Source: Octadecabacter algicola
Lineage (GTDB): Bacteria > Pseudomonadota > Alphaproteobacteria > Rhodobacterales > Rhodobacteraceae
Direction of reading: 5' to 3'
DNA length: 64,000 nt
Assembly: GCF_021532625.1 (NCBI RefSeq)
Contig: NZ_JAKGAR010000001.1
Location: forward strand, 62,001-126,000
Part shown: positions 31,900-35,477 of the stretch, in pieces
Numbering within the stretch: position 1 is the stretch's first letter
How the letters are laid out: each line of letters begins with the position of its first letter
Position numbers and translations under genes: made by a program
The notes under the pieces: generated by a model
What the model was told of the DNA's origin: nothing
What the model saw: only the letters and a program-made list of their open reading frames with translations
Databases searched by the model: none

Positions 31900-32015
31900 G
31901 CGCGTTTGGTCTGATGCAGCTTGTTCCTTTGGCCATGGTGCTCGCGCCAGGCGGCGTTATGCCTGCAAGCCTATTCGTCTTAGTGAGCGGCGCTGCATTT
32001 GGGGGCGGACTGTAA
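31896..32015 (+). CDS. 39-residue hydrophobic mini-protein between nuoD and next gene
   Basis: TTG start overlapping the nuoD stop (TTGA) and TAA stop overlapping the ATG of the next gene (TAATG). The product is almost wholly apolar (Leu, Val, Ala, Met, Gly), with one charged residue or none, long enough for a single membrane pass (about 6-33) and a glycine-rich end. Too short for ordinary gene callers. The double overlap is the main evidence; an ATG at 31914 is an alternative start. If made, it would sit in the membrane near complex I. Confidence 0.5.
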
Positions 32016-32278
32016 TGTTCAGAACGGCCTTGGTTCTTTCGGTTGTTGCGACGTCCGCTTTTGCGCAGGACGCAAGCGATGCCAATATTGCGGCGATGGT
32101 CGCTGCGATCGAAGATGCTGGATGTGTTGTGACGGCGGACAACGGGGACGCTGTCCATCTTGCCTCTGGTTTAACCGAAGATGAAACTGTGGCCGTGATC
32201 CTTACCATGTATGCGGATGGTTTGGTCGCACTCGAAGAAGACGGGACCATGTCCCTTTTCACTGAGGCGTGCCCATGA
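32015..32278 (+). CDS. Small exported two-cysteine protein (copy A)
   Basis: 87 aa. Signal peptide [17 protein letters not shown], then an acidic mature part of about 70 residues with two cysteines (DAGCVV and the C-terminal EACP), probably a disulphide. The mature sequence parallels the next gene. ATG overlaps the preceding stop; its own stop overlaps the start of the lipoprotein gene (ATGA). No known family recognised. Periplasmic location is inferred. Confidence 0.7.
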   Translation: MFRTALVLSVVATSAFAQDASDANIAAMVAAIEDAGCVVTADNGDAVHLASGLTEDETVAVILTMYADGLVALEEDGTMSLFTEACP

Positions 32279-32571
32279 TCCGCGCTGCGTTATTTGTCTG
32301 CGCGGGCTTTATGCTTGCGGGCTGTGATGGCGCTGCGACTGAAACACTTCCTGACGGCGTAAGCGCTGCTGACGTCGCCTTGTTTAAATCCGCTGTAACT
32401 GATGCGGGTTGCGATATCACGAACGATGATCAGGCTGCGCTGGTCGAAGACAAAACTGGCTTTGACGACGCAACACTTTCGATCATTGTTCAATACCTTA
32501 CACTTGCCGGCGAAAGCGAACCTCTCGTGACCGGTTTTCGACTGACTTCAGGATCCTGTGCCAATGCTTAG
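32275..32571 (+). CDS. Small lipoprotein paralogue of the exported two-cysteine protein (copy B)
   Basis: 98 aa with a lipobox (FMLAGCDG; lipidated Cys at residue 18). The mature part repeats the pattern of copy A: an acidic helix, DAGCDIT, a variable middle with an Ile/Leu-rich helix, and a final Cys in GSCANA. Copies A and B thus look like a tandem duplication, one soluble and one membrane-anchored. The end overlaps the nuoE start by 8 nt. Function unknown; its place suggests a periplasmic role tied to complex I. Confidence 0.7.
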
Positions 32572-33751
32572 ACGCCTCCACCTCGACCAACCCGCTAGCT
32601 TTGCTTTCACTTCGGACAACCAGAAATGGGCCGAAGCACAGGTGACGAAATATCCAGAAGGCCGTCAGGCCAGCGCGATCATTCCACTGTTGTGGCGTGC
32701 GCAAGAACAAGAAGGCTGGCTGACTCGTCCGGCAATTGAATATGTCGCCGAAATGCTAGGTCTTGCCTACATGCGCGCTCTCGAAGTTGCGTCTTTCTAC
32801 TTCATGTTCCAATTGCAGCCTGTTGGCTCGGTTGCGCATATTCAGGTGTGTGGCACCACGTCCTGCATGATTTGCGGTGCAGAAGATCTTGTCGCGGTTT
32901 GCAAAGAGAAAATTGCGCCGAACGCGCATGAAGTATCTGCAGACGGCAAGTTTTCGTGGGAAGAAGTTGAATGCTTGGGGTCTTGTTCTAACGCTCCGAT
33001 GGCTCAGATCGGGAAAGATTACTACGAAGACCTGACAGCCGCCAAAATGGGTGAACTGATCGACGCGCTTGGCCGTGGCGAAGTGCCGCTGCCGGGCCCG
33101 CAAAATGGTCGTTACGCTGCTGAGCCTCTCAAGGGTCTGACAACGTTGACAGAGTTTGACAGCGGCAATCATCAGTACAACGCGTCCGTACAATTGGCGC
33201 ATGACATTGGTGATACTGTCAAACGTATTGATGGCACCGAAGTTCCATTGCTCGCGCCATGGAACCAAGCGGCACCAACTTCGGGCGGCAAAGCGGCGAC
33301 ACCTGCCAAGAAAGCGCCTGCTGCAAAGAAAGCTGCACCAAAACCGGCAGCTAAGAAAGTTACAGCTAAGTCGGCCACTGCTAAGCCGGCTGTCAAAGCC
33401 GCATCCGCGCCCAAGGCCGCCGCAAAAGCGAGCACAGCCAAGGCTGCTAAGCCCGCTGCGAAAGCGGCTAAAGCAGCGCCAAAGGCTGCAACTGCGTCGA
33501 CAACAGGCGAAAAGAAACCCAGAACAATGTCCAAACCACGGGCAGCGGGAGCCGATGATCTGAAACGTATCAGCGGTGTTGGCCCGAAACTCGAGGGTGT
33601 GTTGAACGACCTCGGCTTCTGGCATTTCGACCAGATTGCCAAATGGGGCGAAGGCGAAATCGCTTGGGTCGATAGCCGTCTGAAATTCAAAGGTCGCATT
33701 GAGCGTGACAATTGGGTTGATCAGGCGACTGAATTCGCCGCCGAAAAGTAA
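32564..33751 (+). CDS. nuoE: NADH-quinone oxidoreductase subunit E with Ala/Lys-rich linker and HhH-like tail
   Basis: 395 aa against about 165-240 for ordinary NuoE. Residues 1-170 are the thioredoxin-like [2Fe-2S] domain with cysteines in [10 protein letters not shown] and [10 protein letters not shown] stretch at about 190-240 is poorly defined; about 240-325 is an Ala/Lys/Pro-rich linker resembling histone H1 tails; about 330-395 is a helix-hairpin-helix-like domain ([17 protein letters not shown] then [15 protein letters not shown]). Long NuoE proteins are known in Rhodobacter. Cluster N1a is off the main electron path. The tail may aid assembly or tether the enzyme; not proven. Start at ATG 32564; GTG at 32558 possible. 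Confidence 0.93.
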
Positions 33752-33920
33752 CGCATTTCGAAATATCGACGGTGATATCGTAGAAACCGGCCTCAAATTC
33801 AAATTTTGGGCTGTTTTCGCTGGGGTTCCCCTTATCAAGTGTAGGTTGTCACATTAGGCTCTGGCGCAGTTGGCATGTCGGGGCGTGAGATTCCGCATGC
33901 GCACAGGGAAAGGGTACAAC

Positions 33921-35174
33921 ATGAATAATACTTCTTCGAAAGGGACGGGCGCATTTTTGATCGCCGCCTTGTTCGGTCTCGTGGCACTTTTGGTTGCTTG
34001 GGGCATTTTGGATTTTCGGTTCTTCTGGTCATTGGTGATTGGTGTGATCGTTGCGATCATTACTTGGATCGTGCTTTGGCTCGGATGGGGTAAAGATGAT
34101 GCCGACACAGAGTCGAGCACTGGAATGTCCGCGGGAACGACTGCTGCCGCCGGTATTGCTGGTGCAGCTGGTATCGCGGGCGCTGCGGCAGGCGCGGCAA
34201 AATCAGCTGCGGGATCCGCTGCAAGTACCGCCAAGGACGCCGCTTCCGCAACCGCAGACACCGCCAAAAACGCAGCATCGACAGCTGCTGAAACGGCGAC
34301 ATCTGCAGCGTCGAACGTAGCAGACGTAGCGACCAGTGCGGCCGCAAAGACCGCAGATGCTGGTAAGGCTGCGGCCTCCAAAACGGCGTCCGCAGCTAAA
34401 GGCGCGGCAAGCACGGCGAAATCCACGGCGAAGAAGGCAACTGGTGCTGCGAAATCTGCGGCAACTGAGGCTAAATCAACCGGCAAGGCCGCTGCGGCAG
34501 GCGCAAAAACAGCAGCGAAGTCCACGGCATCGGGTGCAGCAACAGCCACCAAAGCAGCAGCAACAAGCGCTAAGACGACAGCGAAATCTGCAACGTCCAA
34601 AGCCAAAGCCGCCGCAGCACCTGCGGCAAAGGACAAGAAGACGGCTGCGAAAACAACGGCAGCCAAGCCAAAGGCAGCAGCAAAGCCCAAAGCAGCAACT
34701 AAGTCTGCAACTACGACGTCGAAAACCGCATCAAAGCCGGCGGCAAAGGCTACAAAGCCAGCAGCGAAAACGGCAAAACCTGCTGCCAAGTCCGCGGCTA
34801 AACCAGCGGCCAAGGCAACTAAATCTGCTGCCAAATCCACGGCTAAACCAGCAGCAAAAACCACTACCAAGTCTACCAAGGCACCAGCCAAGTCCGCTGC
34901 AAGCGCAACGCCTGAGATTCTAAAAGCCGCGCGTTCCGGCGGGGCCGATGATCTGAAACTCCTGAAAGGGGTTGGGCCGGGTCTTGAGAAAACTCTGAAC
35001 GAGCTTGGGTTCTTCCACTTCGATCAAGTTGGGTCTTGGAAGAAGAAAGATGTTGAGTGGGTTGATAGCCGACTGAAATTCAAAGGTCGCATCGAACGTG
35101 ACGGTTGGGTGAAACAGGCGAAAGTTTTGGCAAAGGGCGGAGAGACTGAGTTCTCCAAACGCGCTAAGAAGTAA
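33921..35174 (+). CDS. Membrane-anchored Ala/Lys-rich protein with NuoE-type C-terminal domain
   Basis: 417 aa. Two membrane segments at the start (about 10-30 and 33-55), then a low-complexity Ala/Lys/Thr-rich region (about 75-330), then the same helix-hairpin-helix-like domain as NuoE (DDLKLLKGVGPGLEKTL near 342 and [17 protein letters not shown]). ATG at 33921 with AAAGGGTACAAC upstream; the longer frame has no membrane start. Likely an inner-membrane protein whose basic arm and domain lie in the cytoplasm. It is followed by a strong terminator. A structural or scaffold role with complex I is a guess; the paralogy is visible. Confidence 0.8.
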   Translation: MNNTSSKGTGAFLIAALFGLVALLVAWGILDFRFFWSLVIGVIVAIITWIVLWLGWGKDDADTESSTGMSAGTTAAAGIAGAAGIAGAAAGAAKSAAGSAASTAKDAASATADTAKNAASTAAETATSAASNVADVATSAAAKTADAGKAAASKTASAAKGAASTAKSTAKKATGAAKSAATEAKSTGKAAAAGAKTAAKSTASGAATATKAAATSAKTTAKSATSKAKAAAAPAAKDKKTAAKTTAAKPKAAAKPKAATKSATTTSKTASKPAAKATKPAAKTAKPAAKSAAKPAAKATKSAAKSTAKPAAKTTTKSTKAPAKSAASATPEILKAARSGGADDLKLLKGVGPGLEKTLNELGFFHFDQVGSWKKKDVEWVDSRLKFKGRIERDGWVKQAKVLAKGGETEFSKRAKK

Positions 35175-35193: not shown

Positions 35194-35231
35194 AAAAGGC
35201 CCGCCGGATGCACCGCGCGGGCCTTTTCTTT
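35194..35231 (+). terminator. Rho-independent terminator inside the nuo cluster
   Basis: Perfect 11-base stem (AAAAGGCCCGC / GCGGGCCTTTT) with a 12-base loop, ending in TTTTCTTTT. It lies 20 bp after the Ala/Lys-rich protein gene and so should cut transcription before nuoF, implying a further promoter downstream or partial read-through. Confidence 0.85.
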
Positions 35232-35258
35232 TGGTGCATCAAAGGGCAAACTGCGCCT

Positions 35259-35477
35259 ATGACGACGCCACTAAATCAGACGGACGCTAAACAGGGCCGC
35301 CAAGCCGCAATCGTAATTGCACTTGCTGGTCTTTTGAGCATTTTTGCCCCAGCAATTACCCGCACGCTGGGTGCGGAACCGCGGGTTGAAATGCTGTTGT
35401 ACTTAATCTCTCTTGCTGGGTTCATTTGGTCACTGGTGGTGACGTGGAAGCTGTGGCAAAAGACACGGGATAAATGA
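35259..35477 (+). CDS. DUF5337-like small membrane protein
   Basis: 72 aa. Two membrane segments (about 18-36 and 44-62), short polar ends, final charged residues KTRDK. Matches my memory of the DUF5337 family that occurs in Rhodobacterales nuo clusters. The start is the ATG at 35259; the longer open frame includes part of the terminator hairpin. About 53 bp before nuoF. Function unknown, possibly a complex I accessory. Confidence 0.75.
   Translation: MTTPLNQTDAKQGRQAAIVIALAGLLSIFAPAITRTLGAEPRVEMLLYLISLAGFIWSLVVTWKLWQKTRDK

Follow-up and report, generated by a model that had tools for sequence, protein, structure and literature searches.

The nuo cluster of Octadecabacter algicola encodes the complex I subunit NuoE (32564-33751, + strand, 395 aa) and, next to it, a membrane protein (33921-35174, + strand, 417 aa from the ATG), and both continue into a long Ala/Lys-rich arm and end in the same domain. 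The locus raises the question of what such a tail does on a respiratory subunit and a membrane protein, and of what it might bind. Coordinates are those of the window, the 64,000-nucleotide stretch of contig NZ_JAKGAR010000001.1 that was analyzed.

The shared C-terminal domain and the arms that carry it

NuoE comprises its catalytic part, the thioredoxin-like [2Fe-2S] subunit of complex I (32564-33262, + strand; PF01257, E 1e-51), an Ala/Lys/Pro-rich arm (33263-33544, + strand), and the C-terminal domain (33545-33748, + strand), and at full length it matches the NCBIfam model PRK12373 over residues 1-394 (598.6 bits against a curated cut-off of 514). The neighbor begins with a transmembrane (TM) helical hairpin (residues 7-56; 33939-34088, + strand), followed by an Ala/Lys/Thr/Ser-rich arm (34092-34937, + strand) and its own copy of the domain (34938-35171, + strand). 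The domain, of approximately 70 residues, occupies roughly residues 328-395 in NuoE and 340-417 in the neighbor, and the motif GADDL begins at residues 329 and 341, respectively.

A genome-wide search with the 69-aa NuoE domain as query (E up to 1) identified five copies: those of NuoE, the neighbor (65% identity, E 2.0e-25), ribosomal protein bL21 (60% identity, E 3.1e-20), and two single-TM proteins (65% and 59% identity). Five genomic copies at such E values exclude chance as the source of the likeness between NuoE and its neighbor. An earlier note on this DNA had proposed, at the residues found here, that the two proteins share an HhH-like C-terminal domain, had mentioned a similar extension on bL21 of alphaproteobacteria, and had advised a profile search with the domain alone; the first two proposals are confirmed by these matches, and the search gave a match to the model of the phasin PhaH in addition to the five copies. 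The genes of both single-TM carriers lie directly downstream of an OmpA-type gene, which in one of the two cases has a Pfam OmpA match.

An AlphaFold2 model made from 90 domain copies is all-helical (pLDDT 91.1, pTM 0.80), and an HhH fold is predicted for the domain: the nearest solved folds are the HhH modules of RadA, POLQ, and NusA at Z 7.0-7.6, values which, being below 8, may reflect a common arrangement alone. The model had no Foldseek match at E 0.001, and the window copies matched nothing over cut-off in Pfam; one carrier, L150, has HHH_5 over cut-off (28.9 bits against 27). The N-terminus of ribosomal protein eL32 in PDB 9l94_Q shows a weak likeness to the domain profile (E 0.012), perhaps a parallel case. 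Within the domain, three glycines are invariant, among them those of the G-V-G hairpin, R59 (0.94), R62 (0.97), W65 (0.98), and Q68 (0.97) are highly conserved, and Q38 is another nearly invariant polar residue. The second hairpin is non-canonical. Glu occupies position 25 in 77% of copies, where DNA-binding HhH motifs usually have a small residue, and the domain as a whole is slightly acidic (mean net charge -1.6, n = 90 copies).

The earlier note had also described the arms as H1-like and basic. Both arms of this genome are indeed Ala/Lys-rich and positively charged, that of NuoE having 93 residues, 21 Lys, and a net charge of +22, and that of the neighbor 281 residues, 47 Lys, and a net charge of +36, of which +5 falls in the first half. 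The basic charge is nevertheless not conserved. When the arms of 116 NuoE and 132 hairpin proteins were cut by an automatic rule, in sets that may include a few other TM proteins, 34 and 86, respectively, were net negative; the length and charge of the NuoE arm vary widely among orthologs. A conserved basic DNA-binding arm was rejected on these counts. Five bL21 proteins (L270, L272, L274, L280, L287) have a Lys/Ala-rich tail without the domain.

The neighbor of NuoE and protein-O of Dinoroseobacter shibae

We take the neighbor to be the ortholog of protein-O, a subunit of the RC-LH1 complex of Dinoroseobacter shibae. A profile of 13 hairpins matches residues 1-63 of 8yy9_O at E 1.7e-13 and D. 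shibae 9lts_A at E 6e-13, the query being the profile, with the window's hairpin as its first row. The AlphaFold2 model of the window hairpin (pLDDT 71, pTM 0.42) has helices at residues 7-29 and 34-56, and the best Foldseek rows for this model are 9lts_A and 8yy9_O, at E 2.5 and 3.2. The accessible text of the protein-O paper places the gene between nuoE and nuoF and states that the C-terminus of the protein resembles that of NuoE; it describes the hairpin as visible in RC-LH1, the C-terminal domain as not visible, and the function as unknown to its authors. The gene order nuoE-neighbor-nuoF in the window agrees with the reported D. shibae order and recurs in genome G035, where the hairpin reads identical to residues 1-63 of 8yy9_O. 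Both hairpin and domain are present in PDB 9wqv chain a. At the two aligned columns of the cysteine pair of the hairpin ends, which is disulfide-bonded in D. shibae, 55 of 86 orthologs have both cysteines, 31 (the window protein included) have neither, and none has one alone; by a looser count, five orthologs have a cysteine at a different position, solely on the N-terminal side.

No match to PF00124 (reaction center) was found in the window genome, which is rated 99.92% complete. We placed nuoE and nuoF in 70 genomes of the family, which were picked by domain hits, so that carriers are overrepresented (of 81 loci, 11 could not be used). The nuoE-nuoF gap holds a domain-bearing hairpin protein in 20 of the 21 genomes with reaction-center genes and in 30 of the 49 without (p 0.0036, kinship ignored); such a protein is thus more frequent with photosynthesis without being restricted to it, and the 30 genomes led us to reject a photosynthesis-specific role for the neighbor. 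Protein-O, named as a photosynthetic subunit, is suggested to be a member of a wider nuo-cluster family found in many genomes without reaction-center genes. Six genomes have a hairpin protein without the domain at the same position, and the hairpin is therefore likely to have a separate role. Since the hairpin can occur without it, the domain is an accessory to the protein-O hairpin.

Other features of these loci were recorded. Protein-O-like hairpins without the domain at L194, L211, L216, and L242 carry a KG[ST]WxY motif near their end, which is also present in 11 of 57 domain-bearing hairpin proteins. In some genomes a third domain-bearing gene lies 3' of protein-O (L045:3960-4514, L071:4868-5482, L158, and others). 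The L071 protein, scanned whole, matched no Pfam family; it looks phasin-like, a label of our own given by appearance alone. A script identified a terminator-like hairpin and T-run directly 3' of the protein-O ortholog, within the nuo cluster (35194-35236), which was missed by a second terminator scan with a loop limit of 8. A conserved terminator at this place was rejected as a general feature, with 2 of 56 other orthologs having one compared to 2 of 207 random stretches. A small DUF5337 membrane protein is encoded between the protein-O ortholog and nuoF (35259-35477; PF17272, E 1e-17). Between nuoD and nuoE (31900-32571) there are small, exported-looking ORFs with cysteines that by eye seem mutually related, and ORF 32269-32571 had no Pfam match over cut-off.

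Range, independence, and evolution of the carriers

The domain is present in 91 of 100 genomes of the window's family (E 0.001). At E 1e-5 it was found in 22 of 240 genomes of a class-wide sample and in 56 of 249 of a phylum-wide sample, where 53 of the 56 are Alphaproteobacteria and the remaining three, from one family, have weaker matches (E 4e-8 to 2e-7). A phage or plasmid origin was rejected: no phage record matched at E 0.01, and the seven plasmid records with the domain (E 1e-5) are Shinella, Rhizobium, Sinorhizobium, and Methylobacterium replicons of 2.4-4.6 Mb. Family models confirm as carriers bL21, uS2, bS1 (1025 bits), bL19, a PHB depolymerase (630 bits), and a Pfam phasin. A LivG-like ATPase scores 325 bits, under its model cut-off of 362 yet over the Pfam cut-off for the ATPase; an oligopeptide-type ABC ATPase, membrane proteins, and a few proteins without an assigned name also carry the domain. 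bL21 with the domain is over the model cut-off in 64 of the 100 family genomes. In the class-wide sample, 13 of the 22 carrier genomes have one copy each: five have it on bL21, seven on a single-TM protein, and one on a protein without an assigned name.

NuoE, bL21, and protein-O carry the domain independently of one another. In a table compiled by hand for the 92 of the 100 family genomes that allowed a judgment on both proteins, with eight set aside, the domain is on both NuoE and bL21 in 61, on NuoE only in 16, on bL21 only in 3, and on neither in 12; the two presences are correlated (p 2e-5, kinship ignored). NuoE lacks the domain in 18 of 98 judged family genomes, with most such NuoE still within the nuo cluster, so the tail is not a requirement of complex I as such. 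A paper on Paracoccus denitrificans complex I gives, in its accessible text, the C-terminus of this subunit as 29 residues longer.

The earlier note had suggested that one copy on NuoE and one at the membrane form a tether. That the two copies bind each other, and in this way fasten the NADH arm of complex I to the membrane or aid its assembly, appears improbable to us. The arrangement of the genes would suit it, 50 of the 70 family genomes having a domain-bearing hairpin protein in the nuoE-nuoF gap (that gap alone, in genomes picked by domain hits), as would the slightly greater closeness of NuoE and protein-O domains within than between genomes (0.677 vs 0.653; 0 of 5000 permutations, 81 distinct pairs), with identity within a genome of up to 95% (L019). 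However, the other 20 of the 70 have the domain on NuoE and no domain-bearing hairpin in the gap, six of them having a domain-less hairpin there, and genomes G015, G023, G053, G077, and G083 present the reverse case, a domain-bearing hairpin beside a NuoE without the domain. An obligatory tether is not supported, given that each protein keeps the domain where the other lacks it, that the class sample has single-copy genomes, and that the arm is often net negative. Codon identity at shared residues is also raised within genomes (0.532 vs 0.469), so that the likeness can be accounted for by gene conversion or by shared codon use.

A tree of 188 domain copies (78 columns) mixes NuoE and protein-O domains, and this mixing and the convergence within genomes would fit gene conversion. 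With 110 of its 185 inner branches open, the origins of the carriers are not readable from the tree, and its starred branches require three or more label changes for NuoE and likewise for protein-O. Those changes, and the nine family genomes in which no copy was detected at E 0.001, could speak for a domain that spread by C-terminal fusion and gene conversion, has little function, and was kept because it is harmless. We consider this very unlikely: beside freely diverging arms the domain is strongly conserved, with its three invariant glycines, W65, and Q68, and deletion of phaH is reported, in the available text of a review, to disorder granules.

PhaH and the probable partner of the domain

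The NuoE domain alone matches positions 169-233 of the 234 of the PhaH model (E 9.2e-21), which is the whole domain. The whole-protein PhaH cut-off of 250 bits is missed by NuoE (80.5) and by the neighbor (64.0), and Caulobacter vibrioides was the sole genome of 14 controls to exceed the model's cut-off. PhaH of Caulobacter crescentus was reportedly described by Salinas et al. in 2023. According to the available text of the same review, PhaH binds DNA nonspecifically in dependence on its HhH domain, and through that domain Caulobacter PhaH reportedly positions PHB granules along the nucleoid. The nucleic-acid link suggested by the earlier note thus finds support in a homolog reported to bind DNA; from PhaH we infer that the NuoE, bL21, and protein-O copies may bind DNA or RNA and may affect the positioning of their carriers. 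The match to the PhaH model, the HhH-like fold, the conserved glycines, R59, and R62, and the presence of carriers on the ribosome, PHB granules, and complex I argue for a nucleic-acid partner, whereas the acidic domain, the Glu at position 25, the non-canonical second hairpin, and the absence of a Foldseek match at E 0.001 argue against one.

Since basic charge is absent from the domain and inconsistent in the arms, a shared protein partner is conceivable. All copies would then dock on one conserved alphaproteobacterial protein, such as a scaffold, a part of RNA polymerase, a chaperone, or a protease adaptor. The near-neutral to acidic character of the domain and the nearly invariant polar residues outside the hairpin, e.g., Q38, R62, and Q68, would agree with this, as would its structural likeness to NusA AR2 (6ib8_C, Z 7.0, 63 residues). 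NusA AR2 is a protein-binding module and offers a parallel for such docking. Against it stands the DNA binding that the review's available text reports for the PhaH homolog, and we regard a protein partner as possible but on the unlikely side.

Our best explanation, whose chances we judge to be even, is that the tail is a portable, interchangeable alphaproteobacterial HhH domain that docks on a common partner, with DNA or RNA as the likeliest. Joined through a flexible spacer, the domain would sit on the outside of large machines that face the cytoplasm, and its partner would probably be nucleic acid, as reported for the homologous PhaH domain. The NuoE tail would hold complex I near the nucleoid or polysomes, and in O. 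algicola complex I (NuoE), the 50S subunit (bL21), and three membrane proteins would be in loose contact with the nucleoid or RNA. Single copies in 13 of 22 carrier genomes and mutually independent carriers are expected if there is one external partner. If the PhaH reading carries over, the complex I and ribosome of many marine bacteria would have a DNA- or RNA-binding tail; respiratory membranes would then be physically linked to the nucleoid, and the placement of machines could be tested via one domain. A broader and more tentative proposal is that the domain is an address label through which ribosomes, complex I, RC-LH1-type membrane proteins, PHB granules, and ABC transporters are attached to one scaffold, for which the nucleoid or nascent RNA is the likeliest candidate, with respiration, translation, and storage placed by one device.

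A search of open-license PubMed Central found no paper joining these carriers. The likeness of protein-O and NuoE was already noted in the accessible text of the protein-O paper, and the tail is common to the NCBIfam models of NuoE, bL21, uS2, and PhaH. Those for NuoE (PRK12373), bL21 (PRK12278), and uS2 (PRK12311) are full-length models already containing it; their names assign the tail no function, and bS1, bL19, the depolymerase, and the ABC ATPases fall outside them. The RadA N-terminal domain and NusA AR2 have an HhH fold that the domain may share, the rows at Z 7.0-7.6 aligning 58-63 residues; they belong to different proteins and have 19-24% identity in the aligned rows. Protein-O of D. 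shibae resembles the neighbor in its position between nuoE and nuoF, its TM hairpin, and its C-terminal HhH domain, and differs in that the neighbor lacks both hairpin cysteines and comes from a genome without a reaction-center gene. PhaH of C. crescentus (NCBIfam NF045508) is a phasin, unlike NuoE and the neighbor, which both fall under the PhaH family cut-off, yet its C-terminal domain is of the same family as theirs.
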